64,000 nucleotides of DNA from Hyunsoonleella pacifica. GTDB taxonomy: Bacteria > Bacteroidota > Bacteroidia > Flavobacteriales > Flavobacteriaceae. The DNA is taken from contig NZ_SIRS01000007.1 of NCBI RefSeq assembly GCF_004310335.1, positions 62,001 through 126,000 of the forward strand. Direction: 5' to 3'. The position numbers and the translations under genes were made by a program. The first letter of the stretch is position 1. Each line of letters starts with the position of its first letter. Positions 14,379 to 47,856 of the stretch are shown here, one piece after another. The notes under the pieces are model-generated. The model was given only the letters and a program-made list of their open reading frames with translations. It was not told the origin of the DNA and ran no database searches.

Positions 14379-14567
14379 CTGTTAAAACTTGGATAATGTA
14401 AAAAACAATGTAAGCAACAATATAGGTGCTTAATAAATATCAATAAACTAATTGTAAATAAAGCTATTGGTAGAAATGTATGTAACCAACATCTATAAAT
14501 GAATCTTCACACTCAGGTAAAAACAGGACATTTATTTACGTATCTAAATAATCTAGAATTATAATTT

Positions 14568-15755: not shown

Positions 15756-15768
15756 ACAAAACTTTGAT

Positions 15769-17280: not shown

Positions 17281-17293
17281 ATTTGTTTTTTTT

Positions 17294-20200
17294 TTAGAAT
17301 CTTAAGTTTAAGCTGAAATTAACCGATTTTAAAGTAGGGTAATTTCCAAAATCAAATCCGTTTGTTGTATTACTGTCTGAGTTACTTCCTCCTCCAGATC
17401 CAAAATAGCTTACTTCAGGATCTAAACCAGAATAATCGGTAAAGGTTAATAAATTTTGTGCACTAATAGATAGTCTAATATTTTGCATACCTAGCTTTTC
17501 AACCACATCACTAGGTAATGTGTAACCCAAAGCTATATTTTTAAGTCTGATATAGCTTCCATCTTCTACAAATCGAGAAGAAATCTCTTTTCCTCTAAGT
17601 TTAGCTCGAGGGATATTAGTATTTGTATTTGATGGCGTCCAAGAATTAAGAATCTCTGTAGTAGCGTTTGAATCTCCGTTAAACAACTGTATTGCCGTTA
17701 AATTCATGATATCGCCACCTTGAACACCTTGAAAGAAAATATTCAAATCAAAATTCTTATAAGTGAAATTATTAGTAATACCAAACGTAAAATCTGGTGT
17801 TGGATCTCCAATAATTTGTTGATCTGAAGGAGAAATATCACCACTACCATCAACATCAGTAAATAACTGATCTCCTGCCTCTCCACCAGGTAATAAAGCT
17901 GTACCAGCTGGCAAGTCTCCACCTTGATAAACCCCTTGGTAATCATAACCCCAAAATGCACCTAATACTTCACCTTCTCTTAACAAATGCGTACGAGGTA
18001 AATTGAAATAACCCGGTGAGGCATCTAAAAATAAATCTATATTGTCTCCATCTGATAAGGCAACTACTTCGTTTTGATTTGTTGAGAAATTAAAATCTGT
18101 AGTCCAAGAAAAGTTTTCATTACTTATGTTTCTAGTATTCAAATTAATCTCAAACCCCTTATTATTTACCTCACCAATATTTCTTAAACTAGCAGGTGTT
18201 AAAAAACCTAAGAATTGAGGTTGTGAATTATCTCCAATAATTAAATCTTTAGTATCAATATTATAATAGTCTAAAGAAAGAGATACTTTGTTGTTAAAAA
18301 GCCCTAAATCTAAACCTACATTAGTTTGAAAAGACGATTCCCATTTTAAATTTGGATTAGCAGGTTGGTCTGGTGTTACTGCATTTACAGTTTGTCCATT
18401 ATTAACCGCATAAATATTATCGAAACGCGCCAAAGATTCAAATGGAGATATTGCTTGATTACCTGTTACACCATAACTAACTCTAAGTTTTAAATTTGAA
18501 ATTTTATCACTGTCTTTTAAGAAGTTTTCATTAGAAACTTTCCAACCAAGAGCTGCTGAAGGGAAAATTGCATATTTCTCGTTTGCAGCAAAGTTTGATG
18601 CACCGTCACGTCTAATAGTTGCAGTGATTAGATATTTATCATCATAATCGAAATTAATTCTGCCAAATTGAGATTGAATTTCTGATTCTACTAATGATGA
18701 TGTTGGTATTAACTGTACTGCTCCTCCCGATAAGTTACGGAATGAAAAGGAATCAGACGTAAACCCTTGAGCTCCTGCAGCAAAATTATCTCTAGATCTT
18801 TTTTGATAAGAATAACCAGCTAATAATGTTAATTTCCCTTTGGCTATTTCTTTTGTATACGTTAAATAATTCTCACTAATTAAACTAGTTCTTTTAAAAT
18901 TATCAATAATTGCTCTTCCTCCTACATTTCCACCAGCTGTAGTAATTAAAGTTGATGGTCTAAAAAGCCCAAATGTTTCATTAGTAGTACTAAAACCAAA
19001 TGTTGTTTTAAATGTTAGGTTTTCTAAAATATCATAATTAGCATATAAGTTTGCTCTATATACATCTGTCTTGGTTTCATTTATACCTTCAGTTGCTACT
19101 GCGAAAGGATTATCTATATCATCACCTACTCCGTTCACTGTATTTAGTCCATTAGCATCTAGCACTCCTAAATCTGGTGCAAATCTAAAAGAACCACTAA
19201 CTACGTCATCACCTCCACCATTAGCTGTTTCTCCAGTGGATTGTGTTGGTACTCCATTTTCAGTTCCTCTACTTCCAAATACATTAATTCCTAACTTAAG
19301 TTTATCTGTAACCTGAGCATCAATATTCGAAAGAAACGTAAACCTTTCAAATTCAGAGTTTATAAGAACTCCATCTTGTTTAAAGTAATTTGCAGACGCA
19401 TAGAAGTTTACTTTATCAGTTCCTCCAGAAAATGAAGCTTGATGATTTTGTGTACTACCAGTTCTATATAACAAATCTTGCCAGTCTGTATTAGCAGGCC
19501 CTTGTACATAACTAGGGTTTATAGCTTGTTGATAGGTTGCAAACTGATTAGCATCTAATAAATCTAATTCATTCGCAGTGTTTTGTACTGAATAGTTAGA
19601 ATTAAGTTCGATAGTTAAAGCGCCACTTCTTCCTTTTTTAGTTGTAACCATAACAACACCATTAGATCCTTGGGAACCATAAATAGCTGTTGCTGATGCA
19701 TCTTTTAAAACTTCAATTGATGCAATATCGTTTGGCTGAGGAAAAGTTGCTCCTACAAAACCATCTACTACAATTAAAGGAGAACTACTTGCATTTATAG
19801 ATGTGTTACCTCTAATCTGTATGTTAATTGGTGCACCTGGCTCACCACCATTATTAGATTGTACCACAACACCTGCTGCACGACCCTGCAACGCTTGTGC
19901 TGCATCTAAAACAGGAAATGCATTAAGTTCTTCTGATTTTACTGAAGATACAGCCCCAGTTAAATCACTCTTTTTCCGTGCACCATAACCTACTACAACT
20001 ACTTCATCTAAAGCAGCTAAATCCTCTTCTAATTTTACATCTAGCGTACTTGAGTTACCAACTTTAACTTCTAGTGTAGCATACCCTATATAGCTAAAAA
20101 CAAGAACAGCGTCAGCTTCACTAACTTTTATGGAATAATTACCATCAAAATCTGTTGAAGCACCTGAACTAGTTCCTTTAACAACTACATTTACTCCAGG

Positions 20201-20329
20201 TAATACTGATCCATCTGATTGGGATGTTACAGTTCCTTGTACTGTTTTTTCTTGAGCACTAGCGGTAAGTGCAAAACACAAACTCAATAGTAACAAGAAT
20301 ACTTTTTTCAATTGTTTAGTTTTCTTCAT
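17294..20329 (-). CDS. SusC-like TonB-dependent transporter (PUL 1)
   Basis: A 1011-residue SusC family outer membrane transporter. It has a signal peptide ending in ASAQ (about residue 25), a carboxypeptidase-regulatory-like domain (VQGTVTSQSDGSVLPGVNVVVKG), the TonB-interacting segment LDEVVVVGYG (about 107-116), a plug domain to about 235 and a beta-barrel ending in the outer membrane signature phenylalanine (SLNLRF). It is the first gene of SusC-SusD-GH88-GH2. Its promoter region at 20439-20481 carries three tandem GntR-type palindromes, and an HTCS gene lies just upstream on the same strand, so two regulatory inputs are likely. It probably imports uronic-acid-containing oligosaccharides. 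Confidence 0.96.
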   Translation of the reverse strand: MKKTKQLKKVFLLLLSLCFALTASAQEKTVQGTVTSQSDGSVLPGVNVVVKGTSSGASTDFDGNYSIKVSEADAVLVFSYIGYATLEVKVGNSSTLDVKLEEDLAALDEVVVVGYGARKKSDLTGAVSSVKSEELNAFPVLDAAQALQGRAAGVVVQSNNGGEPGAPINIQIRGNTSINASSSPLIVVDGFVGATFPQPNDIASIEVLKDASATAIYGSQGSNGVVMVTTKKGRSGALTIELNSNYSVQNTANELDLLDANQFATYQQAINPSYVQGPANTDWQDLLYRTGSTQNHQASFSGGTDKVNFYASANYFKQDGVLINSEFERFTFLSNIDAQVTDKLKLGINVFGSRGTENGVPTQSTGETANGGGDDVVSGSFRFAPDLGVLDANGLNTVNGVGDDIDNPFAVATEGINETKTDVYRANLYANYDILENLTFKTTFGFSTTNETFGLFRPSTLITTAGGNVGGRAIIDNFKRTSLISENYLTYTKEIAKGKLTLLAGYSYQKRSRDNFAAGAQGFTSDSFSFRNLSGGAVQLIPTSSLVESEIQSQFGRINFDYDDKYLITATIRRDGASNFAANEKYAIFPSAALGWKVSNENFLKDSDKISNLKLRVSYGVTGNQAISPFESLARFDNIYAVNNGQTVNAVTPDQPANPNLKWESSFQTNVGLDLGLFNNKVSLSLDYYNIDTKDLIIGDNSQPQFLGFLTPASLRNIGEVNNKGFEINLNTRNISNENFSWTTDFNFSTNQNEVVALSDGDNIDLFLDASPGYFNLPRTHLLREGEVLGAFWGYDYQGVYQGGDLPAGTALLPGGEAGDQLFTDVDGSGDISPSDQQIIGDPTPDFTFGITNNFTYKNFDLNIFFQGVQGGDIMNLTAIQLFNGDSNATTEILNSWTPSNTNTNIPRAKLRGKEISSRFVEDGSYIRLKNIALGYTLPSDVVEKLGMQNIRLSISAQNLLTFTDYSGLDPEVSYFGSGGGSNSDSNTTNGFDFGNYPTLKSVNFSLNLRF

Positions 20330-20438: not shown

Positions 20439-20481
20439 TTGGTAAACCAAATTGGTAAACCAGTTTGGATTACCAAATATA
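20439..20481 (-). promoter_or_regulatory. Triple GntR-type operator and -7 box of PUL 1 susC
   Basis: Three 12-bp palindromes lie at exact 13-bp spacing: TTGGTAAACCAA (20439-20450), TTGGTAAACCAG (20452-20463) and TTGGATTACCAA (20465-20476). On the minus strand TATATTTG (20481-20474) fits the Bacteroidota -7 box and overlaps the outer operator, so the start of transcription would fall inside the array, about 140 nt before the susC start codon. I find no clear -33 TTG at the usual distance. Confidence 0.8.
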
Positions 20482-28480: not shown

Positions 28481-29191
28481 TTAAGCCGATTTAATGTTGT
28501 AACAATATTGATAGAGCGCACTAAAATGCTCTTTCATTTTTTGTTTTGCTAAATCTGGATTTTGTGCTTTAATTGCCTTATAAATTTGCTTATGCTCTTC
28601 TATTCCCAAAACAGCTTGATTTTTATCACAAACATGGTACTTTTCAAAATCTATAATGATTTGCGGTGTAATGGTTAGCATAAAGGTATTCATGGTACTG
28701 TTTCCACTTGCCTTGGCAATTGCCAAATGAAATAGTAAATCTTCCTGCACGGCATCCTCACCAGACAATACTTTTTCTTCGTAGGCATCAAACGTTTCTT
28801 TTATATGCCTTAAATCCTCTTCTGATCGTCTTAAAGAAGCCAACTTTACTGTTTTCAGCTCCAATAGAATTCTAGTTTCTACCAACGATTTAAAATCAGG
28901 AGATTCCAGTCTTAAAATATCGTCAATCATTCCATTCATGGCTACTACGCCAATATTAGCAACAAAAGTACCACTCTGCGGAATAGATTTTAATAATCCA
29001 TAGAACTCCAGTTTTTGAATAGCTTCTCTAACATTCCCTCTACTTACTCCAAACTTATCAGATAGCATTCTTTCTGAAGGCAACTTATCCCCTGGCTCCA
29101 GGTTTTTATAATTTATCAACTCTTTAATCTTTCCGATTATTTCGTTCTGTACTTTTTGACTATCACTAATTACTATTGATTCTAATTTCAT
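28481..29191 (-). CDS. GntR/FadR-family repressor, AusR-like
   Basis: A 236-residue regulator with an N-terminal GntR winged helix (KLPSERMLSDKFGVSRGNVREAIQKLEFYGLL, about residues 40-71) and a C-terminal all-helical FCD ligand domain (about 90-230). Its place in the alginate locus matches that of AusR, the GntR repressor of alginate use described in Zobellia galactanivorans (recalled, not checked). FadR-type repressors of hexuronate use bind palindromes like TTGGTATACCAA; the same type of palindrome (CTGGTTAACCAA) lies at 29209-29220, 18 nt before this start, so autoregulation is likely. The ligand is probably KDG or a related intermediate. This protein is the best candidate reader of all TTGGTWWWCCAA arrays in the window. 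Confidence 0.9.
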   Translation of the reverse strand: MKLESIVISDSQKVQNEIIGKIKELINYKNLEPGDKLPSERMLSDKFGVSRGNVREAIQKLEFYGLLKSIPQSGTFVANIGVVAMNGMIDDILRLESPDFKSLVETRILLELKTVKLASLRRSEEDLRHIKETFDAYEEKVLSGEDAVQEDLLFHLAIAKASGNSTMNTFMLTITPQIIIDFEKYHVCDKNQAVLGIEEHKQIYKAIKAQNPDLAKQKMKEHFSALYQYCYNIKSA

Positions 29192-29208: not shown

Positions 29209-29220
29209 CTGGTTAACCAA
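29209..29220 (-). promoter_or_regulatory. Single GntR-type operator before gntR
   Basis: CTGGTTAACCAA, a 12-bp near-perfect palindrome of the same type as the arrays before both susC genes, here as one copy 18 nt upstream of the gntR start codon. No second copy is found 13 bp to either side. It suggests negative autoregulation. Confidence 0.72.
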
Positions 29221-29315: not shown

Positions 29316-30233
29316 TTAATGCCTTACTTCTAATTCATAAAAACGTACCTTGGAGTAAGCACCTTCATCTCTAGATTGAAAATAATTTCCAGCTTTAAAA
29401 TAATTTTCAAAAACTCCCCATTTTCGCATATATATATTTTCATATACTTTATACTCATTCCCATTAAGTACTACAACCATTTTCCCTTCAGAAACTTTTA
29501 CTTCTAAAACAAATTTTCTAAAGCCTACTTCCTGCTCAAAATTAAACCCTTCATCATCACCCCAAGCGTCTTCGCGAAGTATCTCTTCACTGGTAGCATT
29601 CAAATTTTTTAATACCTTGGTTTTAACTCTTACCTTACCATTATCCCAATATATTTTTAATATTGGTGGAGCATTATTATCATCTTCACCTATCAAGTCT
29701 CGCTGCTCATTTGTTAACCTACCGTGTATTTGCATAATAATGGTGCGGTGATACTTGCCATCTGCCCCCTTAGTCGATTCAGCCATAGATATTTTACCTT
29801 TCATGTAAGCTCCATCAGCAAAAGTCCAGTTTTTATGATTACTTCCTGGCTCCATTTGCTCTCTAAGTTCAGACCTAGTATATTTTGTATTCTTAGTTTT
29901 AGATGCTGTTGGCATCGCATGAAATACAATAGCTCCTTTAGTGGAATCTATGAACATATATGGTCTTGCAATTTCATTGTTTGCAAAATCGAAAATCTCT
30001 GGTGGCTCAATTTCGTAAGGTTTGCCTTTTTCATTCGTAACTGGTAAAGTTACTTTCCAATGACTTAAATCTATATCAGGTAGCCTTGCTTTCTTTTTTT
30101 TCTTCTTTTTTTTCTTTTTTTCAACTTTAGTTTTGGAATCTGTAGTGCTAGTCTCCTTTTTTTGAGAGATTACATTACCAGACACAAAGACTAAAAGAAC
30201 AACTATTAATATTTCTTTTCGGATGTATTTCAT
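29316..30233 (-). CDS. PL7 alginate lyase
   Basis: A 305-residue secreted jelly-roll lyase with signal peptide (about residues 1-24). All three PL7 motifs are present: YTRSELREQ (about 115-123), QIH (about 165-167) and YFKAGNYFQS (about 277-286). The family cleaves alginate by beta-elimination with His and Tyr as the catalytic pair. The QIH form has been linked to polyG or mixed preference rather than strict polyM. Between signal and catalytic domain is a run of ten consecutive lysines, which is unusual. The gene starts 31 nt after the PKD protein and ends the susC-led alginate operon. A free secreted or periplasmic form is likely, since there is no lipobox. Confidence 0.95.
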   Translation of the reverse strand: MKYIRKEILIVVLLVFVSGNVISQKKETSTTDSKTKVEKKKKKKKKKKARLPDIDLSHWKVTLPVTNEKGKPYEIEPPEIFDFANNEIARPYMFIDSTKGAIVFHAMPTASKTKNTKYTRSELREQMEPGSNHKNWTFADGAYMKGKISMAESTKGADGKYHRTIIMQIHGRLTNEQRDLIGEDDNNAPPILKIYWDNGKVRVKTKVLKNLNATSEEILREDAWGDDEGFNFEQEVGFRKFVLEVKVSEGKMVVVLNGNEYKVYENIYMRKWGVFENYFKAGNYFQSRDEGAYSKVRFYELEVRH

Positions 30234-33044: not shown

Positions 33045-34646
33045 TTAGTATCCGTTATTCTGGCTATAAACACCAGGTAAATTATCTAGTTCTCTTTGTG
33101 GAATAGGGAGATAAATTTTATCACTTGTGTATAAAAACCCATTTCTATTTGAGTGCGTTCCCAACACATTATCTGCCTCATTAAATCTTATCAAATCATA
33201 CAAGCGTTGATTTTCAAATACAAACTCCACTCTGCGTTCCTCCAATAATTGTTGTTTTGTTAAGTTAACAACTTCTTCTAAACCAGCTCTTAATCTTACT
33301 TGGTTAAATGCTTCAATTGCTCTAATATCGGTAGTAGAATCCCCACCAGCCAAAATAGCTTCAGCATATAATAATAGTACATCTGCATATCTTAATATAA
33401 TCCAATCATTTCCATTCGCTTCTCCAGAAGATGGGTACTTAGAGTTAAACGTATCATTTAAAAGATCATCTGCAATAACCGTAATACTTCTAAAGGTACC
33501 ATCAAATCTAACGGGTTGTAATTCTGGCGTCATAACCGAAAGTAAATCTAGTGTAGCTACATTTACACCATTTGATGGTCCGCTTGCTGTCATAGCATTA
33601 CTAAACCCTTCTGCGTCAGTTTCAACTTGATCGTCTAAACCACTCTGACTACTCACTACGTTATCCGTATTAATGGCTTCATATGAAATAGAAAAAATAA
33701 TCTCTTCATGAAGCTCCAACCCTTCATTGTTTGTAAAAGATCCATCTAATCGTAAATTATCAGATGAAAACTCTCCAACAAACTCATTACCAAAAACCTT
33801 TGCAAAGTTAATAGCTTGGTTTGCCTGATATTCTTGGGTAGTTAAAATATTTACTGTAGGATCATTGGGATCGGCATCAAATAAGAAATTTTCTGACTCA
33901 TCTCTATCTATCGTCAATAAATTATATCCAAATGACGTGTTGTTTTCTATTATAGAAGCTAATAATAACTCAGCCTCAGCATAATTAGGATTGGGCTGAC
34001 TTAAAAACGTTTTAGCTAGTAAACAAATAGCTGCACCTTCAGAAGGTCGATATCTATTTTGAGGAGCTCCGTTTAAAAAAGCGATTGAGGTTCTAAAATC
34101 TTCAACTATTTTCGCATAAACCTCTGATGGCGGTAATTGTGGGTAGTTTTCAGCTTCATCTGAATTAATATCTAACACTTTATCCAAATATGGTACATTC
34201 TGATAAGCTCTTACCAAATTAAAGTGACACAAAGCTCTAAAGAAATATGCTTCTCCAATGGTATATTGAAATTCTTCTGGCGCTAAAAACTTATTTTCTA
34301 TAATTGTATTTGCTCTAAAAATGGTAGCATAATTATTAGACCAATAGGTAGCTGCGTCACCATTGTTGGCATCCATATTATAAGAATCAATATCTGGATA
34401 CACACCGTTTTGCGCATTGGCCCTACTGTTATCTGATCTTAGTTCAATCAATAAAAATTCATTTGCCGGTATTTTTTGATAACTGTCTATAACTCCAACA
34501 GCCAGTAGCTCAAAACCATCAGCGGTTTGCAATAATTCTTCTAGAGAAAACGCATTTGGATTATTCAAATCCAACTCTTCTTGACAGCTAGAAAGAAAAG
34601 CTATCATAACGAGGCATACTTTTATATATTTAAATGTCTTTTTCAT
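33045..34646 (-). CDS. SusD-like glycan-binding lipoprotein (alginate PUL)
   Basis: A 533-residue SusD family lipoprotein (lipobox AFLSSC, Cys about residue 21). The helix AYFFRALCHFNLVRAYQNVPYLD (about 133-155), RYADVLLLYAEAIL and RRVEFVFENQRLYDLIRF are standard SusD landmarks, and it ends QNNGY. It forms the lid of the SusC encoded 5 nt upstream. With PL7, a PKD protein and the DEH pathway in the same locus, its ligand is most likely an alginate oligosaccharide. Confidence 0.96.
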   Translation of the reverse strand: MKKTFKYIKVCLVMIAFLSSCQEELDLNNPNAFSLEELLQTADGFELLAVGVIDSYQKIPANEFLLIELRSDNSRANAQNGVYPDIDSYNMDANNGDAATYWSNNYATIFRANTIIENKFLAPEEFQYTIGEAYFFRALCHFNLVRAYQNVPYLDKVLDINSDEAENYPQLPPSEVYAKIVEDFRTSIAFLNGAPQNRYRPSEGAAICLLAKTFLSQPNPNYAEAELLLASIIENNTSFGYNLLTIDRDESENFLFDADPNDPTVNILTTQEYQANQAINFAKVFGNEFVGEFSSDNLRLDGSFTNNEGLELHEEIIFSISYEAINTDNVVSSQSGLDDQVETDAEGFSNAMTASGPSNGVNVATLDLLSVMTPELQPVRFDGTFRSITVIADDLLNDTFNSKYPSSGEANGNDWIILRYADVLLLYAEAILAGGDSTTDIRAIEAFNQVRLRAGLEEVVNLTKQQLLEERRVEFVFENQRLYDLIRFNEADNVLGTHSNRNGFLYTSDKIYLPIPQRELDNLPGVYSQNNGY

Positions 34647-34651
34647 AATTA

Positions 34652-37600
34652 TTAAAATTGAAAGTTAATACCAGCTGATATAGTTCTCACCACAGGTCCG
34701 TCACCTCTTTGATAACCTGCCGTTAAAGGTGTATTTGCATTACTTGATGTTTGTCCTGCAGCTTCTGGATTAAACCCTTGATATTCTTGTGCTGTCCAAT
34801 ACAGCAAATTATTTCCTGTGACATATAGTCGTAATCTATCAAAATTTAGTTTGTTAGATAAGTATTCTGGCAATGTGTACCCTATTGTAATATTTCTTAA
34901 AGTCACAAAAGAAGCATCTTGTATATGCGCACTGGTAAATCTTCGTGGTATAACTTTATCGCGTTCTACTTCTGGTAATGCTGTAGCTTGAACAGCTCCT
35001 TCACTTGCAAAAAGTAGCTGATCTAAATCTGCCACTCTTACCTCTCCTCCATGTGATCCTTGAAACTGAAAAGTAAAATCTAAGTTTTTATAGGAGATAT
35101 CTGAATTGAAGCCCCATGTAAAATCTGGATAAGGACTCCCAATTTCAGTTCTATCATCTGCATCAATAATCCCATCTCCATTTAAATCTTTCACATACAC
35201 CTCTGCAAAATCATTATTAAATCTATTGAATGGGTTTTCAATGAAATCTATATCAATTTCTCTATCGAATACATAACCGTAGAAAGAGGTAATAGGAAGT
35301 CCAATTCTAGCAATAAATTCTGTTGGCCTACTTTCTTGATCTATTCTAGATATTATCTGTTCATTTCCACCTAAATCTAACACTTCGTTTCTATTTAGAC
35401 CAAATTGACCAGAAAGTCTCCAACTAAAATTCTCATTAGTCCAAATCCTAGAATTTATAGCAAGTTCAACACCTTGATTTCTAACTTTTCCTATATTCTG
35501 TAAGAAGGTATCAACACCATAAGCCGCAGATACTGGAGCAGAAAGTATTAAGTCCTCACTTGTTCTTGTATAATAATCTGCTGTTAAACTAAATAGATTT
35601 CTTCCGAAAGTGATATCTAATCCAGGATTAAACTCTACTAGCTTTTCCCAACCTAAATCTGCATTTGCTAAAGCAGTATTTTTAACCCCTGATTCTCCAT
35701 TAGCACTAACAATAGCGAATGTTTCTTCAAACCTATATAAAGAGTCATATATATTATTTGAAATTTGATTAGAGCCTGAAATACCGTAACTAGCTCTTAG
35801 TTTTAAAAAAGTAATGACGTCACTATTGGAAAGGAAATCTTCACTCGACACATTCCAACCAACAGATGCAGCAGGGAAAAACCCGTATCTGGTATTTGAG
35901 CCAAATCTCGTACTTCCATCAGTACGTGCAGAAATTTGCACCAAATACTTTTCATCATAGTTGTAATCTAGCCTTCCAAAATATGATACTAATTTATCTG
36001 ATCCATTTTGAGTAAAAGTTGTACCACCATCTGCTAATGCAATATTTTCATTAAAATCATTAGAATATACACCAAAAGCTTCAGAATCTTGACTTGAGAA
36101 ATCTCTATTAGTGAATTCAAAACCTAGAATAGTATTAAAGTTGTGTTTTCCAAAGCCTCTCTTGTATCTTAAAACAGATTCTATGACATATTGATTAACC
36201 TCATCCCTACTCTCAAAACGAAACCCTTCGTCCCCGAAGTTTACGATATTTTCATTTCCAGCAACAAAATCTGTATTATTATTTTTAGTGTGTCTGAAAA
36301 TACCCGAAATAGTTTGCTTAAAATTAAGACCCTTAGCTAATTTAAAATCTACATAAGCTGCGGCATTTAAACTAAATCTTCTTTTTATCCTAGATCTTTC
36401 AAGGTAAGGTACTAATGGATGAACATTTCTGGTTAAACCCAATGTTAGCTGCCCTGGTAAGCCTTGTTGCGTGTTAATAACTGGCAGCCCTGTATTAGGA
36501 TCTCTTAAAATAGTTCTTGGATTATTTTGATCCTGAAAAAAGACTCTATCAAAAAGTCTAGAAAAACCATAACTACCAACACCTAAGTTTTCATACTGGG
36601 TACCTGCAGTACTCAGCGATCCACCAGCATCCCTATACGCGTTAAAAATATCTAAATGATCTTGATTTAGATATAATGGTATAGCTCCGTATTGTCTTAG
36701 CGCATCAGTAAATCTGGCAGGCAATCTATCTTGATCGTTGTAACTCGCACGAAGATTAACTCCCGCTTTTATCTTTTCGTTTTGAGACTTGGTATCAATC
36801 TTTAAATTTGCATTGTATTTTTTAAAATTATCCGCTAAAGCAATACCTTCATCTTCAAGATAAGCTACGGATGCAGAATATTTGGTAAGCTTAGAACCAC
36901 CTCTGGCACCAAATGAATGGCTCGTTATAGTACCTCCAGGCAAAATCTCCTTCTGTAAATCTAATTCACCTCCACTCAATTCTGACAAATAATCCCATGC
37001 TGCTAGTTCTGCATACGCTTGGTTGTACCTAAGGTTAACTCTAGCAAAATTCACAGGATCTGCTATCTCATCAACAGCACTCTGTAACCCATCTAAACGA
37101 GTGCGCTCTTCAGCTACTGAAAATGTAAAATTCTCATTATCGGTAGCATATTTATAACCTGTAAACGAGTTAAATGTAAACCTTGTTTTACCTTCAATAC
37201 CTTGTTTTAGCGTTACCAAAATTACACCATTTGCTCCTCGAGAACCATATATTGCAACCGAAGAAGCGTCCTTTAGCACACTTATAGATTCAATGTTATT
37301 ATTATCAATAGATGATAGTATATCTGCATCTGTCCCCAATACAACTCCGTCAACAACAATGAGTGGCGAAGAAGAGCCTGTAATTGAACCAGGACCTCTA
37401 AGTGTTATTTTTGGGTCACCCCCAGCTTCTGATGCTACGGTTTGTATTCTTAAACCTGCAACTCTACCTTGAAGGGCGTCTTCCACACGTGCCACGGCAA
37501 TATCTTGAATTTCTTTAGAATCTATTTTTGTTAAAGCACTAGTTACATTCTTTTGTTTTTGCTCACCATAGGCCACTACGACCACTTCATCTAATTTACT

Positions 37601-37894
37601 AATATCTTCCTTTAGAGCTATATTAATAGTAGTATTATCGCCTATTATTTTTGTTTGGGAGGCATAACCCACATAAGTAAATTGTAGTACATCTCCTTTT
37701 TTAGCATTTATAGTATAAGCGCCATCAAAATCAGTAGTTGTCCCAGTTGATGTGCCTACAATAATTACATTAACACCTGGAATAGGCATATTATTAAGGT
37801 CGGTTACCACACCATTTATTGGGATATTTTGTGCATTTAGCATATAGCCAAAAACCAAAGTGAGTACTAATAACAGTTTAGTTTTTATATTCAT
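34652..37894 (-). CDS. SusC-like TonB-dependent transporter (alginate PUL)
   Basis: A 1080-residue SusC transporter. It has a signal peptide ending in LNAQ (about residue 22), a carboxypeptidase-like domain (NGVVTDLNNMPIPGVNVIIVG), the TonB-interacting segment LDEVVVVAYG (about 102-111), plug and a C-terminal barrel ending SAGINFQF. It is the first gene of the alginate operon susC-susD-susE-like-PKD-PL7. Transcription probably starts near 38180, giving a leader of about 285 nt with two hairpins, and is controlled by a triple GntR-type operator. It is predicted to import alginate oligosaccharides. Confidence 0.96.
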   Translation of the reverse strand: MNIKTKLLLVLTLVFGYMLNAQNIPINGVVTDLNNMPIPGVNVIIVGTSTGTTTDFDGAYTINAKKGDVLQFTYVGYASQTKIIGDNTTINIALKEDISKLDEVVVVAYGEQKQKNVTSALTKIDSKEIQDIAVARVEDALQGRVAGLRIQTVASEAGGDPKITLRGPGSITGSSSPLIVVDGVVLGTDADILSSIDNNNIESISVLKDASSVAIYGSRGANGVILVTLKQGIEGKTRFTFNSFTGYKYATDNENFTFSVAEERTRLDGLQSAVDEIADPVNFARVNLRYNQAYAELAAWDYLSELSGGELDLQKEILPGGTITSHSFGARGGSKLTKYSASVAYLEDEGIALADNFKKYNANLKIDTKSQNEKIKAGVNLRASYNDQDRLPARFTDALRQYGAIPLYLNQDHLDIFNAYRDAGGSLSTAGTQYENLGVGSYGFSRLFDRVFFQDQNNPRTILRDPNTGLPVINTQQGLPGQLTLGLTRNVHPLVPYLERSRIKRRFSLNAAAYVDFKLAKGLNFKQTISGIFRHTKNNNTDFVAGNENIVNFGDEGFRFESRDEVNQYVIESVLRYKRGFGKHNFNTILGFEFTNRDFSSQDSEAFGVYSNDFNENIALADGGTTFTQNGSDKLVSYFGRLDYNYDEKYLVQISARTDGSTRFGSNTRYGFFPAASVGWNVSSEDFLSNSDVITFLKLRASYGISGSNQISNNIYDSLYRFEETFAIVSANGESGVKNTALANADLGWEKLVEFNPGLDITFGRNLFSLTADYYTRTSEDLILSAPVSAAYGVDTFLQNIGKVRNQGVELAINSRIWTNENFSWRLSGQFGLNRNEVLDLGGNEQIISRIDQESRPTEFIARIGLPITSFYGYVFDREIDIDFIENPFNRFNNDFAEVYVKDLNGDGIIDADDRTEIGSPYPDFTWGFNSDISYKNLDFTFQFQGSHGGEVRVADLDQLLFASEGAVQATALPEVERDKVIPRRFTSAHIQDASFVTLRNITIGYTLPEYLSNKLNFDRLRLYVTGNNLLYWTAQEYQGFNPEAAGQTSSNANTPLTAGYQRGDGPVVRTISAGINFQF

Positions 37895-38151: not shown

Positions 38152-38216
38152 TTGGTTTTCCAAATTGGTTTACCAGTTTGGTTTTCCAAATATATACTAA
38201 TTTTCTGTTAAATCAA
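38152..38216 (-). promoter_or_regulatory. Promoter and triple GntR-type operator of the alginate susC
   Basis: Three palindromes at 13-bp spacing: TTGGTTTTCCAA (38152-38163), TTGGTTTACCAG (38165-38176) and TTGGTTTTCCAA (38178-38189). On the minus strand the -7 box TATATTTG is at 38194-38187 and a -33 TTG at 38216-38214, separated by 19 nt, which fits the Bacteroidota consensus. The -7 box shares bases with the outer operator, so bound repressor would block the start site. Confidence 0.85.
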
Positions 38217-39701: not shown

Positions 39702-41972
39702 CTATATGTTTTCTATTAATATATAAGGCCCTTTCCAGGCATGTTTTTTTTTGTTTACCGTTAATTCATGTTCTGTATTCTTATCATTATTTTGATTGGA
39801 AATAATGAACAGCTTTTTTGTTTCGTCTTCCATTTCTATTTGAACAGCAGTGTAATCTTCTGAATTATACACCACAGAAACAGATTTAATATTACTGTAT
39901 GCGTTAATTGCAGATTCAGAAACTGGATTATAAGTACCATGCGATTCTATAGTTGCAACAAACACAGCATCTTTGGTATTCCTTTTTCTAATAATTAAAG
40001 TTGGCTCATTTCTTAAATTATACTCAGGATCATTTGCGCCTATACGTGCAAGTATTACCTCATCATTTGGAGATGTTACGGCAGAATATGTATAAAACTT
40101 GTTGTTTAGCAACCAATTTAATTGAATGTTGCCTCCATCCGAAGTTGCTACGGCTTCTTTATATAAGTGTTGGTAACCATTTTTATTCCCTAAAATCTCT
40201 GGAACGGGTAATTTTGAGTATTCAAAACTAGTCTGCATTATATGTCCTAAGTAATAAAATGGCAAATCGTATTGATTTTGACTCTCTGATGTAACTCTCA
40301 TAATATCCAACACATAAGGATTTTCATAGGCTGAATTTTTAATAGTAGCCATGGTACGATGTAATTCAGTTCCTGGATAAGCATTACTTTCTTTGGCACT
40401 TACTACTTGAAGGTTTTCATTATCAGAACTAAAAATATAGCGCTGTGAATGATACATACTCCCTATATCGTACTTCCCTTTGAAGTGAGAGGTTTCGTTT
40501 TGAACCAAGGTATTATGAGATATCGTTTGTTTTGCCCAAGTTTTATTTTCCTTTAAGTAATTACCACCTCCTTTTTGTTCAATGTTTACAAATCTAGCTA
40601 GTCCATAATCCTGCACCACCTCATCGCCTTCGTCAAATAGCGAATAAGAGAGTTTATCATAATGTCCATGACTTAAACCATGTGCTGTGTATTTGCAGAC
40701 CAACTCCAAATCACCACTGCGTAGTATTCCAACAGCACCTTGATTGCCCTCAGGACCATCGGATAGCTCTATAGATTTTTTTACAAATGGTTCTGCCTTG
40801 CCGTCTTTAATGCCTAGTGCCACAGCCAAACCTGCATCATCTAATGTTACCACACCTTGCTTTTGGGCCACACTTAACAATTCTGGATTGTTACCTCCAA
40901 AATGGTAAGCGATATCCACCGCCGCAACCAGTGCACTGGAATAATAAGACATGCCTTTCTGCGCATCGTTCAACAAAAAGAAATCACCATCAGCGTCCGA
41001 AAGATTAATTAAGGCCGTAACACTTTTTAAAAGCACACCGTCTTTATATTGCAACACTTTTAATTCAGGTTTTTTATTTTCTAGTGCTTGAGCAAAAATT
41101 AAAAAAGGATAAGAAGCGTAACGCTGATAATAAGGACCTTCGGTAAAATAACCATCCGGTGAGAATGGTTCATCAAGATTAGCAAAAAAACCTATTTTCC
41201 CATCTTTATTTATAAAACCACCATCGTTGTCCTTCATGTTTGCATCCATCTTTACATCTTTTAAACCGTAAAGTGCACGTTGTAGTAAACTATCATCATC
41301 CATTGCTAAAGCCATCATGCCCACAGCTACATTACCCCAAGTACTATGATTGTGCACACGATTAAAAAACTGCGGATTTCCTTTTGAAATAAAATCTGCA
41401 AATGGCCTAAACAACTCTGTCTCAAGCTTATTTCTTTCCTCACTAGACAAATAATCGTGAATACAATCGTAAGCTTGACTCGTGTAAACCAGCCAGTTAG
41501 AATCGTTTAAACATTGCCAGAATAATTTTCCTCTCGCGTAAGACCGCGGTTTAGGATGAACTGGTAATGTGGGATACATTTTAGCATATTGCATTAGCAT
41601 ATCCTTTACAAACTTGGCATATTTCTCATCATCCAAGATTTGATATAAAGCGCCCGCTTTTTGCATCACGAAAAAGTTTTTTTTATGGCGCTCATGTGTG
41701 TAGCCTCCAGAATAATCTTTAGGAATTGGTACTTCTATACCATTTTCTATTTCGGCATCTACCTCGGCCTTTGTTTTCTCTAAGGCCTTATCAAAAAGCG
41801 GAATATTTCCTAAATACTCCCTAATGTCAGCAACACCCTTTTGTGTTAAAATTAAGCTTGGGTGAACAGATTGAGATACTGCACTATTGGCATCACTTGT
41901 TTTTTCTTCACACGAAAACACAAGTGATAGCGCTAAAAATAATACTATATGCGATTTTATATACTTTAGCAT
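39702..41972 (-). CDS. PL17 oligoalginate lyase lipoprotein
   Basis: A 756-residue lipoprotein (lipobox SLVFSC, Cys near 21) with an alginate-lyase (alpha/alpha) toroid (about residues 60-380) and a heparinase II/III-like beta-sandwich (about 400-640). HNHSTWG (about 206-212) and EGPYYQRYA (about 277-285) carry the Asn/His and Tyr expected in PL17 exolyases such as Alg17c. TAHGLSHGHYDKLSYSLFD (about 433-451) is the conserved His-rich motif of the second domain. The enzyme takes unsaturated monomer from oligoalginate, probably in the periplasm. It opens the PL17-kdgF-cupin group; there is no clear promoter in the 175-nt gap before it, so readthrough from the jelly-roll lyase gene is possible. 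Confidence 0.94.
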   Translation of the reverse strand: MLKYIKSHIVLFLALSLVFSCEEKTSDANSAVSQSVHPSLILTQKGVADIREYLGNIPLFDKALEKTKAEVDAEIENGIEVPIPKDYSGGYTHERHKKNFFVMQKAGALYQILDDEKYAKFVKDMLMQYAKMYPTLPVHPKPRSYARGKLFWQCLNDSNWLVYTSQAYDCIHDYLSSEERNKLETELFRPFADFISKGNPQFFNRVHNHSTWGNVAVGMMALAMDDDSLLQRALYGLKDVKMDANMKDNDGGFINKDGKIGFFANLDEPFSPDGYFTEGPYYQRYASYPFLIFAQALENKKPELKVLQYKDGVLLKSVTALINLSDADGDFFLLNDAQKGMSYYSSALVAAVDIAYHFGGNNPELLSVAQKQGVVTLDDAGLAVALGIKDGKAEPFVKKSIELSDGPEGNQGAVGILRSGDLELVCKYTAHGLSHGHYDKLSYSLFDEGDEVVQDYGLARFVNIEQKGGGNYLKENKTWAKQTISHNTLVQNETSHFKGKYDIGSMYHSQRYIFSSDNENLQVVSAKESNAYPGTELHRTMATIKNSAYENPYVLDIMRVTSESQNQYDLPFYYLGHIMQTSFEYSKLPVPEILGNKNGYQHLYKEAVATSDGGNIQLNWLLNNKFYTYSAVTSPNDEVILARIGANDPEYNLRNEPTLIIRKRNTKDAVFVATIESHGTYNPVSESAINAYSNIKSVSVVYNSEDYTAVQIEMEDETKKLFIISNQNNDKNTEHELTVNKKKHAWKGPYILIENI

Positions 41973-42147: not shown

Positions 42148-43212
42148 TTACTTAACTATTAACCTTTCAACACCTACAGTAAATGCGCCTTTATTGAAAA
42201 CAATAAAATACATCCCAGGGTTAAAATCAGAAATATCCATTGTTTTAGAAATAGGTTTTATTTCTTTTATAAACTGCCCCAAACTATTATAAACATAAAT
42301 TTCACTAAAACTGTTAGCTACAGCCTCATTAATGAGAATTTGAGACTTCGCTGGATTGGGTAAAACTTTAATTACTTTTTTTTTAAAATTAAAATCATCC
42401 ACTGACAAAGCACCTGTTTCTTCGATGCTAAAGCCCGAAAACAACACTTGTTCATCTCTTAAATCAGCAGCATTTATCAAACTTCTGTAAATACCCCATT
42501 TTGGTCGCACAAATTCTGCACCTGGTCGCCAATTGATAATGGAGCTATTTGAATAACTAAAAAGCTCAACCCCATCGCTAACCCTTTTAATTTCAATTGA
42601 ATAAATACCATCCGTTGCGTAATTTATTGTCTCAGTTACTTCAAGCCAAACACCTTTAAAGGGTGCTAAATCCATCTTTTTTAGAGTAATTTGTCTATCA
42701 GTTTCTGCATAGCGCAATTCCAACTGATCCGGATTGCCTTTTCTAGTGGTTAAGGTATACATAGGCATGCTTTCCAAACTACCACCAACCGATTTTAATT
42801 GATGAATATGCGTAAAGTTTGGTGAGGATTGAAAGCCAGCATCTAGTTTAAACTTCCATTTGTAAATAACATTTTCTCCTTCAATACCTTTAAGGTTATC
42901 AGGAGACTTATCGTAAGCCTTTATTTCGTTGCGTTGCCTGTCAAAATTTTTACAACGATCGTTATCTGGTGTTACGTGGATATTAAAGCGGAATACGTTT
43001 GAATTAAGGTCCGAATCAAAAACCTCATCAATATGCCGGCCAAAAGCGGCATGGTTACAATCTGGAACTTCAATAACATCAAACCCCGGTGCTAACACAG
43101 AATTGATTAACTCATAGGTGTTTCCTGGTCCATCAGCATCCAATACTACCTGAGAATTTATAGTTTGAAATTGAAATAAAAGAACAGCACTAAATGAAAG
43201 TAAATATCGCAT
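42148..43212 (-). CDS. Jelly-roll polysaccharide lyase candidate with T9SS domain
   Basis: A 354-residue secreted protein. After the signal peptide (ends NSQ, about residue 20) comes a concanavalin-A-like domain of about 240 residues resembling the heparin-lyase-I type (Polysacc_lyase) families: DRQRNEIKAY (about 88-97), KWKFKL and NFTHIHQLKS (about 116-140), each carrying charged or His residues typical of jelly-roll lyases. The last ~80 residues are a T9SS type A sorting domain (LPNPAKSQILIN and so on). The family number cannot be fixed; alginate, glucuronan or ulvan could be the target. It has its own promoter and double GntR-type operator, so it belongs to the predicted alginate regulon. 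Confidence 0.7.
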   Translation of the reverse strand: MRYLLSFSAVLLFQFQTINSQVVLDADGPGNTYELINSVLAPGFDVIEVPDCNHAAFGRHIDEVFDSDLNSNVFRFNIHVTPDNDRCKNFDRQRNEIKAYDKSPDNLKGIEGENVIYKWKFKLDAGFQSSPNFTHIHQLKSVGGSLESMPMYTLTTRKGNPDQLELRYAETDRQITLKKMDLAPFKGVWLEVTETINYATDGIYSIEIKRVSDGVELFSYSNSSIINWRPGAEFVRPKWGIYRSLINAADLRDEQVLFSGFSIEETGALSVDDFNFKKKVIKVLPNPAKSQILINEAVANSFSEIYVYNSLGQFIKEIKPISKTMDISDFNPGMYFIVFNKGAFTVGVERLIVK

Positions 43213-43220
43213 CTGTATAA

Positions 43221-43272
43221 TTGGTTAACCAGTTTGGTTTACCAAATATAACTATATTATTATGTTCTACAA
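43221..43272 (-). promoter_or_regulatory. Promoter and double GntR-type operator of the jelly-roll lyase gene
   Basis: Two palindromes at 13-bp spacing, TTGGTTAACCAG (43221-43232) and TTGGTTTACCAA (43234-43245). On the minus strand -7 TATATTTG is at 43250-43243 and -33 TTG at 43272-43270, 19 nt apart. The predicted start site near 43237 leaves a leader of only about 25 nt, and the inner operator ends 9 nt before the start codon. Confidence 0.85.
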
Positions 43273-43390: not shown

Positions 43391-45700
43391 TTAATACATT
43401 AATTTTAATTTCAAATTTTGCTCAGTTTTTATTTGTCCTGAGTTAGTCAATGTATTGTTAGATTCCACATTATTTTTAGCGCCCCACAATATGGAAACGT
43501 ACTGTACGGGGTTATTCTTAAATATATTGTTAGTAAGATTTACATTTACAATACCCCTGTGGTTTAGCAGGATTTTATTTTTTTCTTTATCCCCACAATT
43601 TATAAATGTACTATTAGATACCAACAGATTACCCCCAATAGTAGACTCGTCATATCCACCCCTGTAATAATCAATCACATTTGCTTTTACTTTATTAAAA
43701 TTACAGTTTCGAATGGTTAAATATTCTGTGTTGTAATCACCTTTATCGTTCGTTTCCTCAGATAATTCTATCCCATTGTTACAATTAGATATTAAGGTGT
43801 TTTCAAAAGTAATACGCTCAGCAAACGATTCTTTATAAACCTTTAAAACGAAATTAAAGTTATCGATTTCAGAATTTAAAACTGTTAACCCAAAGTGATT
43901 TAACATGTTTTCCTTTAAACTTGCAAATGCATAGTTTGAATTGTTTCCTTTTAATTTTAAGTTTTTAACTATAAGTTTTCCCTTGGACTCTAATGAAAAT
44001 AACGGTGTATTTTCTACACCCGAAAACACCAATTGTGATTTTCCGTCAGATTGAATAGTCAAAGTTTTATTAATTACTAAAGATTTATTTATACTGAAAA
44101 CACCTTCTGATAAAGCAATAACATCTCCATTTCCTGCCTCATCAATTTTAGCTTGCAGTTCCTCTACCTTATTAACACTATACGTTATTGGTTCTTTTGC
44201 CTTAACCTCATTAGAAAACCAAGTTGCTCCGTATTTAGATTTATCTAAAATATTAGGGTTTGAAACCTCTTTACCCATAATTGCACCAATACTTTTATCA
44301 TCTTTTCTAGAAACACCTAATAAATCCGTTTCAATGGTATCAAAATTAAAACCATTATACGCTTCAAAACCATTAGGTATTCCAACAGGAATATAAATGT
44401 TATCAGATAATTTTCTAAGTTCTAAAGAGGCTTCCACAATACCTCCATTAAAGTCTTTATAGGCAACTCCTTGATTATTTATAACGTTGTTCTTAAATAA
44501 AACCCCGTCTGCTTTATCATTTTCAACTACAATATTTTTAAGCCCCTTTTCATTAAAAACAATATTATTTGCAACGGTTGTTCTTATTGCTCTAGCCGAA
44601 CGGATTTCCGATTTCGGCAAAACATCAGCTTGCGCTAAATTTTGCCCAACTCCAAATTGCCAAGGCGCGCTACAATTTACATACGTATTATATGCCACCA
44701 CAACATCTGTTACTTGGTTATAACGATTTAATGGTGATTTTGGAATACCGTTCATTACTGCCAATGGGCTTCTAAAACTCTTTCCTTTTAAGTTAAAAAA
44801 GTAATTATTGATTACCCAATGTCCTGTATTTATGATCCTGATTCCTCCATAATTTTCATTAACGCCATTACCGATAAAATAATTACCATCTATAGTACAG
44901 TAATTACCATGTCGCGTAACTAGAGAACCTTCACTTTTGTAGAATACATTGTTTTTAAATACATTGAAATTTGTTTTACTGGAAATTACCTCAACTTCAC
45001 CATTACATTCCTCAAACAAATTATTGGCTACCATTGTATGGCTTGGTGACATAGATGTATAACTATTACCCAATTGAATGGTTTCTCCGCTTGGACCTCC
45101 TTTTACGGGTCTAGGTCCAAAGTGGTTATTAACTATTTGATGGTAGTTATTAATACTCTCGATACCTTCAATACTTACTCTTACCGTAGGGCCTCTATTT
45201 GTTTTACCTGCGATATAGCAATTGCTCAATTCATTATGTCGTCCCCAAAATTGTACCCACAAATCATCTTTATCTCGTTTAGGTTTATTAAAATCTTCAA
45301 TCACACAATTAGTCACTTTACAATTATTTGCAATTTCTTCGTCATTAATTTTAAAACCAATCACTGCATTTGATGGTGAGTATCCGTTTCTAAAATGCAA
45401 ACCCTCTACTTCTAGGTATTCTCCACCAAACTTTAAATATGATTTACCTTCAACAGTAACTTCCCCTGGAGTCTCTGCCCTTAAAGTTATTGGTTTTTCT
45501 TTAGTTCCTTTTCCTCTAAACTTAATTTCAACATCTTTCCAAACTCCATTGGACATAATGATATAGTCACCCGGTTTTGCATTTTTTATTGAGGTTTCTA
45601 ATTCAGCAATAGTAGTAACCAAAACACCTAAATCATTTGATGCTTTATTACATGAAACAACTATACAACAAAGAAAAACAAGAAGGAATAACCTTTTCAT
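43391..45700 (-). CDS. PL6 alginate lyase with two beta-helix domains
   Basis: A 769-residue lipoprotein (lipobox CCIVVSC). The N-terminal parallel beta-helix (about 30-440) is a PL6 (chondroitinase-B-like) domain: NRGPTVRVSIEG, YHQIVNNHFGPRPVKGG, and EVEVISSKTN with Lys242 followed 21 residues later by Arg263 in VTRHGN, matching the Lys/Arg catalytic pair and spacing of AlyGC (Lys220/Arg241, recalled). A second beta-helix (about 500-769) resembles the accessory helix of two-domain PL6 enzymes. It is probably surface-bound and degrades alginate, often polyG or mixed blocks. A terminator-like hairpin sits 30 nt before its start codon, after the lamin-tail gene, so its expression may depend on readthrough. 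Confidence 0.93.
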   Translation of the reverse strand: MKRLFLLVFLCCIVVSCNKASNDLGVLVTTIAELETSIKNAKPGDYIIMSNGVWKDVEIKFRGKGTKEKPITLRAETPGEVTVEGKSYLKFGGEYLEVEGLHFRNGYSPSNAVIGFKINDEEIANNCKVTNCVIEDFNKPKRDKDDLWVQFWGRHNELSNCYIAGKTNRGPTVRVSIEGIESINNYHQIVNNHFGPRPVKGGPSGETIQLGNSYTSMSPSHTMVANNLFEECNGEVEVISSKTNFNVFKNNVFYKSEGSLVTRHGNYCTIDGNYFIGNGVNENYGGIRIINTGHWVINNYFFNLKGKSFRSPLAVMNGIPKSPLNRYNQVTDVVVAYNTYVNCSAPWQFGVGQNLAQADVLPKSEIRSARAIRTTVANNIVFNEKGLKNIVVENDKADGVLFKNNVINNQGVAYKDFNGGIVEASLELRKLSDNIYIPVGIPNGFEAYNGFNFDTIETDLLGVSRKDDKSIGAIMGKEVSNPNILDKSKYGATWFSNEVKAKEPITYSVNKVEELQAKIDEAGNGDVIALSEGVFSINKSLVINKTLTIQSDGKSQLVFSGVENTPLFSLESKGKLIVKNLKLKGNNSNYAFASLKENMLNHFGLTVLNSEIDNFNFVLKVYKESFAERITFENTLISNCNNGIELSEETNDKGDYNTEYLTIRNCNFNKVKANVIDYYRGGYDESTIGGNLLVSNSTFINCGDKEKNKILLNHRGIVNVNLTNNIFKNNPVQYVSILWGAKNNVESNNTLTNSGQIKTEQNLKLKLMY

Positions 45701-45781: not shown

Positions 45782-47146
45782 TTATTTGATAACTATTTTT
45801 TTTGTTAAAGTTCTGTCCTCAGCATTTATTTTCATTAAATACATGCCAGCTGCTACATTAGATATGTTTAACCTATTATCCTTCAATCTATTTTCAGACA
45901 AAATTCTTTTTCCCAAGATATTATATAGCGATACCGAACTAATTTGCAAATTATTTGATTCGATAGTTATAAAATTATTGGCTGGGTTAGGGTATATTCT
46001 AAAATTAGAAACAACGTTCTCATCAACAGAAAGAGGAGCAAAATTAACATTAACCTCTCCATAGGTAAGACCGCTAAAATCGCTAAAATTATTATTTGTT
46101 AATTCTGCACTAGGTACGTTTCTAGTTCCTGTACCACTAAATCTCCAATCTGGATATGATACTGAATTCACTCGTCCAGCCATCCAATCATCATTATTAA
46201 CAGCATCAGTAGTACAATCAAAACCACTAGAAGTACCTTGTCTAGCCACGTAATTAGGATACTGATTAAGAGTAACTATTGTAGGAGATAAAGAACTATC
46301 AAAACGAAGTAAAGGATCTGTAGATAGTAGTTGTTCAACAAAAATTATTTTACCATATCCAAATTCACCTACTTCACCATTGCCGGTAGTAATATCGTCA
46401 TCGTCTAAAATACTAACTGAATCATATATTGTCCAGGTTAAGGCATCTCCATCGAGAACTCCATCCTCATTTGAATCTACTATCGCATCCTTAGGATTTG
46501 TAGCTGATTGTACAATCATATATGTAGAACTTTGGTCATTAAAGGTTCCATCGTATCCTATATCTGGGGTAATTGACGAAACATTATAATTATTTAAAGT
46601 CTCATTAGTGCCATCAGAAGGACTTTCATCCGTCCATTCTATAGTGTCAGCCACTAATTGTATTGTTACTACATTAGCGTCTGAAGCAGCTAAATCAGTC
46701 GCATAAGGATTTATGAATTTAGTACCGCTTATATCGGCACCAAGTAAATCAACTGCACCTGTACCAGTATTCATAGTTATATCAACAACAATAACTAAAA
46801 TTCCATTGCTGCCAAATTGCAGTCCACTTAAGTCAACCGCTTCTCTAACTTTCCCAATGTTAGTACCAACATCACTATCATCTCCATCTCCATCTATTGC
46901 AATAAAATAGGTGTTAGCTGGAATAGTACCATTCGCTGGCCCCCTAAATTCAAAATATTCAATACCTGCATCTGTATCTGTTTGATAAGGCTCCATAGCT
47001 GCATTATCAGAATCATTGAAAAAAGCAGTGCTACTATTAGGCGGACTAGGAATTATTTCACTAATAAAATAAGTGGTGTGGTCGTAAGTTTGTGAATATC
47101 CCAAAAAAGAGACACATAGTAATAATAAAAGTAGTTTTGTTTTCAT
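45782..47146 (-). CDS. Secreted lamin-tail-like protein with T9SS domain
   Basis: A 454-residue protein with signal peptide (ends GYSQ, about residue 19) and a T9SS type A sorting domain (IYPNPANNFITIESN to the end, about 385-454). The middle part has a lamin-tail-domain-like segment (IEYFEFRGPANGTIPANTYFIAIDGDGDDSDVG, about 62-94) with acidic, probably calcium-binding loops. No catalytic motif is visible. Its promoter has the triple GntR-type operator and a good -7/-33 pair, so it is predicted to be strongly regulated with alginate genes. It may be a surface adhesin or alginate-binding protein; the function is not known. Confidence 0.75.
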   Translation of the reverse strand: MKTKLLLLLLCVSFLGYSQTYDHTTYFISEIIPSPPNSSTAFFNDSDNAAMEPYQTDTDAGIEYFEFRGPANGTIPANTYFIAIDGDGDDSDVGTNIGKVREAVDLSGLQFGSNGILVIVVDITMNTGTGAVDLLGADISGTKFINPYATDLAASDANVVTIQLVADTIEWTDESPSDGTNETLNNYNVSSITPDIGYDGTFNDQSSTYMIVQSATNPKDAIVDSNEDGVLDGDALTWTIYDSVSILDDDDITTGNGEVGEFGYGKIIFVEQLLSTDPLLRFDSSLSPTIVTLNQYPNYVARQGTSSGFDCTTDAVNNDDWMAGRVNSVSYPDWRFSGTGTRNVPSAELTNNNFSDFSGLTYGEVNVNFAPLSVDENVVSNFRIYPNPANNFITIESNNLQISSVSLYNILGKRILSENRLKDNRLNISNVAAGMYLMKINAEDRTLTKKIVIK

Positions 47147-47198: not shown

Positions 47199-47264
47199 CT
47201 GGTTTTCCAATCTGGTTAACCAATTTGGTTTTCCAAATATAAACATAATAAATAGGTTTAACAA
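47199..47264 (-). promoter_or_regulatory. Promoter and triple GntR-type operator of the lamin-tail gene
   Basis: CTGGTTTTCCAA (47199-47210), CTGGTTAACCAA (47212-47223) and TTGGTTTTCCAA (47225-47236) lie at exact 13-bp spacing. On the minus strand -7 TATATTTG is at 47241-47234 and -33 TTG at 47264-47262, 20 nt apart. The array ends 53 nt before the start codon. Confidence 0.85.
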
Positions 47265-47302: not shown

Positions 47303-47856
47303 TCAATGAAGGACTGTGTTTGGCGTTGTTCCGTCGGTAACTAATGCGTTTTTAAACCAGAACTCTGTATAGCTTCCGTTTTTCATGTTATTTGGCAATG
47401 TTCACATCGTAGGTATCAGACTTAGTAGATTGTCCATTGGCGGTTATATGTGCCTTGTTTGAAATAACATTTTTCGCTAGCGTAAGCGGTTTCCTTTCTG
47501 GACTTATGTCTCATCTTGAAGAATAGAGGTCAATAACATGTTTAGGAATATCAGCTTTTGTTGATAAATCAGAATTTATAAAACTTTTTATAAACGTTAT
47601 AGTTTCGTAACCCTTACTTTTAAATGTTAATTTAGATAGTACCTTTTTAGACGTTAATTTTATAACTAAATTCTTCGCCTAAAGCAATGCCATCTATTCC
47701 TTCTTCAAAATAGGTTGTTTCATCTACTTCTACCATGGAAAAATCAGATCCCCAAACAGTAGTTGAAAAATCAAACCTTCCAGAATTGTTTCCTTTAGTG
47801 TTGATTTAGTAGTTCCAAAACATAGAGCCTTTGTACACTTGAAAATTTTTTATATT
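47303..47856 (-). pseudogene. Decayed alginate-lyase-like gene fragment
   Basis: The minus strand carries coding-like fragments broken by stops and frameshifts. In order they read FQVYKGSMFWNY, a TAA where CAA (Gln) would fit, INTKGNNSGRFDFSTTVWG, and IDGIALGEEFSYKINV; then, after a frameshift, LTFKSKGYETITF and ADIPKHVIDLYSS. These segments resemble the middle of PL7/PL18-type alginate lyases (Alginate_lyase2), from memory. The last parts (AHITANGQSTKSDTYDVNI, NGSYTEFWFKNALV, stop at 47303) I cannot assign. The fragment runs on in frame from the PL6 remnant, so a deletion has fused two dead genes. Confidence 0.65.

Follow-up and report, generated by a model that had tools for sequence, protein, structure and literature searches.

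Comparison with described polysaccharide lyases

In marine Bacteroidota, alginate loci are commonly interpreted as combinations of PL6, PL7 and PL17 enzymes. Novel alginate lyases have been suspected in such loci before, but these were of the PL12 type in the accessible part of that report (PMC6298971). Among jelly-roll enzymes, the accessible text of PMC7601620 gives the catalytic residues of the PL20 glucuronan lyase TrGL as Arg51, His53, Glu55, Gln91, Tyr200 and Asp206, and the title of a work in the reference list of PMC8618178 assigns the roles of both base and acid to a lysine in Aly36B, a PL36 alginate lyase. We analyzed a 64,000-nucleotide stretch of the Hyunsoonleella pacifica genome (hereafter, the window), which encodes a jelly-roll protein (42148..43212, minus strand) that is predicted, and likely, to be an active exported uronan lyase of an alginate regulon. 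Its subfamily is assigned to no characterized PL family by the libraries and literature searched, and the open-licence PMC literature yielded no paper on it, nor any joining "alginate lyase" and "PF14099". A recurrent, co-regulated and exported lyase outside the PL families characterized in these libraries would mean that part of the alginate toolkit is unmeasured.

The predicted lyase resembles TrGL in its jelly-roll fold and in four residues (R51, E55, Q91 and Y200, kept as R92, E96, Q138 and Y242), but has Arg94 at the position of H53, is 17% identical, and is a bacterial protein with predicted T9SS export from within an alginate regulon. With the PL13 heparin lyase I (3ikw, 3ina) it shares the PF14099-type fold and a K-x-G-I-Y strand; it differs in being about 110 residues shorter, in its identity of 15%, in having no heparin context and in the histidine of the Q-W-H motif (H151), which is most likely Lys140 here. 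The PL7 alginate lyases, one of which is encoded in the same PUL (29316..30233, minus strand), have a similar jelly-roll and a similar layout of R-x-E, Q-x-(H) and K-x-G-x-Y motifs, whereas the window lyase has no PL7 profile match and no Q-I-H. Aly36B (6kcw) is a comparable jelly-roll (Z score, 16.8–17.0) at only 9%–10% identity and offers, by analogy, a precedent for a catalytic lysine (its Lys143) in an alginate lyase of jelly-roll fold. PF14099 proteins of EPS loci (L070 and L087) resemble the window lyase in their R-A-E-I-[KR] and K-x-G-I-Y motifs, but have Q-x-H where it has Q-x-K, lie near glycosyltransferase-like genes (assigned by eye), and are set apart by a branch of approximately five changes per column in a quick tree. 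As the root of this phylogeny relied on four highly distant rows and 18 of 62 inner branches stayed open, we built no evolutionary scenario on it.

Protein architecture and fold

The gene is an intact open reading frame for 354 residues with an ATG start, and its product is classed as a PF14099-type polysaccharide lyase, predicted to be secreted, based on the reading frame, Pfam, a structural model and fold matches. A signal peptide, judged by eye from the sequence, spans residues 1–20 (43153..43212, minus strand). It is followed by the jelly-roll catalytic domain, delimited by the model and alignments (residues 21–268; 42409..43152, minus strand), which carries the key residues R92, R94, E96, Q138, K140, K238 and Y242 and the cysteine pair C52/C87. 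A T9SS type A sorting tail (residues 284–352; 42157..42363, minus strand) exceeded both curated cut-offs (PF18962, 39.3 versus 27 bits; TIGR04183, 36.7 versus 23 bits). The two cysteines are missing together in one homologous sequence, a joint loss that fits a putative disulfide. The genome holds one copy of the gene, which is its sole PF14099 match, and six further matches cover the tail region only. The original prediction of a T9SS-exported jelly-roll protein with the motifs RQRNEIKAY (residues 92–100) and FTHIHQLK (residues 133–140) was thus borne out by the tail scores, the modeled beta-sandwich and the motifs themselves.

Assignment to PF14099 (Polysacc_lyase, heparin-lyase-I-like) is marginal by profile: the full-length protein scored 29.2 bits over residues 79–258, below the curated cut-off of 29.9, and the trimmed domain scored 30.3 bits, just above it. 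Matches to PF14099 (E ≤0.1) were obtained for 34 of 38 aligned subfamily members. An AlphaFold2 model built from the 38-row alignment was a confident beta-sandwich (mean pLDDT 90.3, pTM 0.88), whose top Foldseek match was the T. reesei glucuronan lyase 2zzj (PL20; E = 4e-10). With VIA-align, heparin lyase I (3ina, PL13; Z 19.5, 3.3 Å over 222 residues) and 2zzj (Z 18.9, 2.9 Å over 205 residues) were counted as tied, followed by GH131 (Z 18.3), PL36 Aly36B (17.0), PL14 (16.9) and PL7 (about 15–16). Fold likeness alone is no proof of function; GH131 is a hydrolase family. We looked for a clear match outside the lyases and found none, the GH131 score lying slightly below that of heparin lyase I. 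The profile and fold matches together support the earlier view of a jelly-roll lyase that is heparin-lyase-I-like or belongs to a new family sharing the fold. Searches of the PDB by phmmer and profile found no relative beyond a T9SS tail. The protein had also been described as lacking the PL7 triad of motifs, which holds at the profile level (no match to PF08787, and an hhalign probability of only 0.15% against a PL7 alignment) but has to be softened at the motif level, where diverged counterparts (R-x-R-x-E, Q-x-K and K-x-G-x-Y) are present.

A tandem operator shared with alginate and glucuronide genes

The double operator proposed for this gene is real: the palindromes TTGGTTAACCAG (43221..43232) and TTGGTTTACCAA (43234..43245) stand 13 bp apart, 9–33 nt upstream of the ATG. 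Sites resembling TTGGTNNACCAA (at most one mismatch) occur 17 times in the window versus 2.86 expected, a six-fold excess that was reached in none of 100 shuffles. The 4.13-Mb genome has strict tandems (13-bp spacing, at most one mismatch) at only four promoters, every one of them inside the window. These precede the lyase gene, the alginate SusC (38152..38189), the T9SS/PL6 gene pair (47200..47236), and the SusC of a second locus with GH88 and GH2 genes, PUL 1 (20439..20476). The reversed pattern gave no tandem, and a fifth genomic site appeared only at two mismatches. The tandem operator common to the alginate SusC and the PL6 pair places the lyase gene in the alginate regulon, as first proposed, and these two plainly alginate promoters count in favor of alginate as the substrate.

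All four tandem promoters carry TATATTTGG at the operator start, a composite pattern found nowhere else in the window. This pattern resembles a Bacteroidota -7 box, of the TAnnTTTG type, fused to the operator, an arrangement that suggests repression. At the lyase gene the box is TATATTTG (43243..43250, minus strand), which overlaps into operator 2, and it is identical at all four tandem promoters. A sigma-70 scan found nothing above shuffled controls. A GntR-FCD regulator encoded at 28481..29191 (minus strand), with a single operator at 29209–29220, is the natural candidate for the protein that recognizes these sites.

The neighboring genes are all on the minus strand. Next downstream, at 175 nt, lies a PL17 oligoalginate lyase gene (39702..41972), for which no operator of its own was found, and the alginate SusC/SusD pair follows at 33045..37894. 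On the other side are a PL6 lyase (PF14592 by Pfam; 43391..45700) and a T9SS protein of 454 residues (45782..47146), the first gene after a tandem operator. The latter protein has no Pfam domain besides its tail and has an 81% identical relative at locus L091. PUL 1 (11952..20329) encodes SusC, SusD, a GH88 unsaturated glucuronyl hydrolase and a GH2 beta-glucuronidase-like enzyme.

Several other features of these loci were observed. The interval 47318–48244, immediately upstream of the 47200–47236 tandem operator, holds the remains of a decayed PL6 gene (48244–47780, minus strand; first ~190 residues) and, after it, of a decayed PL7 gene (47919–47318, minus strand), the best stretch of which has nine stops. 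Beside homologues of the lyase gene, a divergent PL6 with a T9SS-like tail (858–891 residues, ~30%–34% identical to the window PL6) recurs (L091 6738–9356, L093 6811–9387, L095 10780–13422, L098 12250–14859 and L066 9252–11927). A small T9SS protein at 60339–61091 (minus strand) has a sub-threshold match to an ulvan-lyase beta-trefoil (24.2 versus 27 bits).

The operator also accompanies homologues in other genomes. Excluding L001, L054, L067, L068 and copies with <150 nt of upstream sequence, and including the window copy (L008), 18 of 58 homologues have an operator within 250 nt upstream; among the remaining ORFs at these loci the count is 27 of 440 (P = 2e-7). This comparison is conservative, as several of those 27 are themselves SusC, PL or GntR genes. 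All 18 have a copy between -46 and -16. The operator is present even at copies without an alginate lyase within 8 kb (L023, L024, L025, L027, L035 and L045), and genome G130 has just three tandem sites, two beside PL7 genes and one before an isolated homologue ~200 kb away. No operator was found within 250 nt of the remaining 40 of 58 homologues, some of which may sit inside operons.

Co-occurrence with alginate lyases and candidate substrates

The lyase gene was found in 14 of 149 genomes of the family and PL7 in 38. PL7 was encoded by 13 of the 14 carriers but by only 25 of 135 non-carriers (P = 4e-8), the sole carrier without it being G048, an 82%-complete draft. Carriers also commonly encoded PF05426 (12/14, P = 1.5e-6), GH88 of any kind (11/14, P = 0.005) and the general marker GH16 (14/14, P = 0.007); as the genomes are related and shared ancestry was ignored, all P values given here are too small. 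In a neighborhood census of 44 of 46 GTDB loci (the fragments L067 and L068 were dropped), PL6/PL7/PL17-type genes lay within 8 kb at 22, and 20 of the 22 genomes with the other loci encode PL7 elsewhere.

Read together, the export signals, modeled fold, retained lyase residues, common operator and co-occurrence with alginate lyases point, on balance, to an extracellular, T9SS-exported lyase of the PF14099 fold that is co-induced with the alginate genes and probably cuts alginate outside the cell by beta-elimination. Counted against alginate are the two nearest folds, which act on glucuronic- or iduronic-acid polymers, the marginal PF14099 score, the 40 homologues without an operator within 250 nt, the possible presence of non-alginate enzymes in the PL6 cluster, and the tendency of the gene to track PUL 1 among PL7-positive genomes.

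A serious alternative, which we consider less likely, is that the lyase cuts a glucuronic acid polymer (beta-1,4-glucuronan or a GlcA-containing brown-algal polymer) and feeds PUL 1, where GH88 would remove the unsaturated end and GH2 the beta-glucuronic acid; the co-regulation with alginate genes would then reflect the origin of the two polymers in a single cell wall. In keeping with this, the best Foldseek match is a glucuronan lyase, and PUL 1 itself has no lyase in the window and its SusC is preceded by a tandem operator, of which the genome has only four. The PUL 1 GH88 is of the unsaturated-glucuronyl-hydrolase type (3wiw, E = 1.7e-85) and the GH2 is closest to beta-glucuronidases, and hence PUL 1 would expect lyase products bearing glucuronic acid. 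Homologues of the lyase gene adjoin PUL-1-like genes at L058, L059 and L101. Orthologues of the PUL 1 GH88 (≥55% identity; 8 of 149 genomes, leaving out a broken copy in G132) occur in 6 of 14 carriers versus 2 of 135 other genomes (P = 6e-6). Among PL7-positive genomes, the lyase gene is present in 6 of 6 with PUL 1 versus 7 of 32 without (P = 6e-4), or in 6 of 7 versus 7 of 31 if the G132 copy is counted (P = 0.004).

Against it, the GH88 orthologue is missing from 8 of the 14 carriers, genomes G010 and G143 have PUL 1 without the lyase gene or PL7, and the gene adjoins PL17, PL7 or PL6 genes far more often than PUL 1. The link to PL7 also stays when genomes with PUL 1 are removed (7/8 versus 25/133, P = 1e-4). 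We regard alginate as a likelier substrate than a glucuronic acid polymer, both links being supported by the genomes. Membership of the gene in PUL 1 alone was rejected, given the 8 of 14 carriers without PUL 1. The link that the operator makes to the glucuronide PUL hints that these bacteria may respond to alginate and a GlcA polymer as a single signal. Other genomes conserve PUL 1, which includes a hybrid two-component regulator, mostly without a recognizable lyase. In G132, of the same genus, there is no lyase homologue and the PUL 1 GH88 is broken by a stop codon (G132:C3:259164-260341).

Predicted active-site residues

The active-site register was taken from sequence alignment rather than from a residue map of the model. 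TrGL R51, H53, E55, Q91 and Y200 align with R92, R94, E96, Q138 and Y242 (domain numbers 72, 74, 76, 118 and 222) in all three MAFFT modes, H53 being replaced by Arg94 each time; four of the six listed TrGL residues are thus kept, and the alignment is uncertain past Y242, where D206 falls. Two positions after Q138 is K140, where heparin lyase I and other PF14099 proteins have His. The hhalign alignment sets Lys140 opposite H151 of heparin lyase I; in MAFFT, K140 aligns with the PF14099 His in one of three modes and faces mostly gaps in another, and the third shifts the strand. Lys140 probably occupies the His position of Q-x-H, an equivalence counted as inferred owing to this disagreement. An alternative register, with H135/H137 as the Q/H pair, was disfavored since L076 has F at position 137 yet keeps Q138 and K140, and since every one of the three MAFFT modes pairs TrGL Q91 with Q138 and hhalign places Q on Q; one of the three modes does shift other PF14099 rows.

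Across 61 subfamily sequences (excluding L001, L008, L018, L054, L067 and L068), E96 and Q138 are invariant, and R92, R94, K140 and Y242 are each present in 60. The single K140 exception is a gap in L064, and R92, R94 and Y242 are jointly lost only in L021, from genome G119. This G119 homologue (L021/L080/L103; 37% identity) is probably a catalytically dead binding protein, to judge from its residues. That the window protein itself only binds carbohydrate at the cell surface, having a lyase fold but no catalytic activity, is improbable: the G119 losses, the non-His residues at its putative catalytic His positions and the lack of clear lyase activity in some jelly-roll relatives such as Cip1 (in the accessible part of PMC3764139) would suit such a role, but a pure binder would not need the Arg, Gln and Tyr that 60 of 61 sequences all retain, nor the Lys140 likewise present in 60.

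For the favored reading, an alginate lyase, the gene would be switched on together with the alginate genes, with GntR-FCD 28481 as the putative operator-binding protein. The exported enzyme would cut alginate chains extracellularly, presumably by endo-action, and the cleavage would supply unsaturated oligo-alginate to the SusC/D importer and the adjacent PL17 enzyme. R94 and Q138 may neutralize the carboxylate, and Y242 may act as an acid/base residue, partnered by K140 or by an invariant His, for example H79. A more far-reaching proposal, which we advance only tentatively, is that the protein founds a new PL family that keeps the heparin-lyase-I/glucuronan-lyase fold but has Lys in place of the catalytic His of Q-x-H. 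In this family, where Q-x-K is nearly invariant across the 61 sequences, elimination would proceed via Lys/Tyr and Arg, and the lyase would head a regulon that joins alginate breakdown to a distinct GH88/GH2 glucuronide PUL.

Some homologues (L029, L031, L034, L065 and L015; L041 and L043) lack the T9SS tail and have an extra N-terminal domain instead, which either follows a lipoprotein-like signal or consists of InlB B-repeat-like repeats, as judged by eye.
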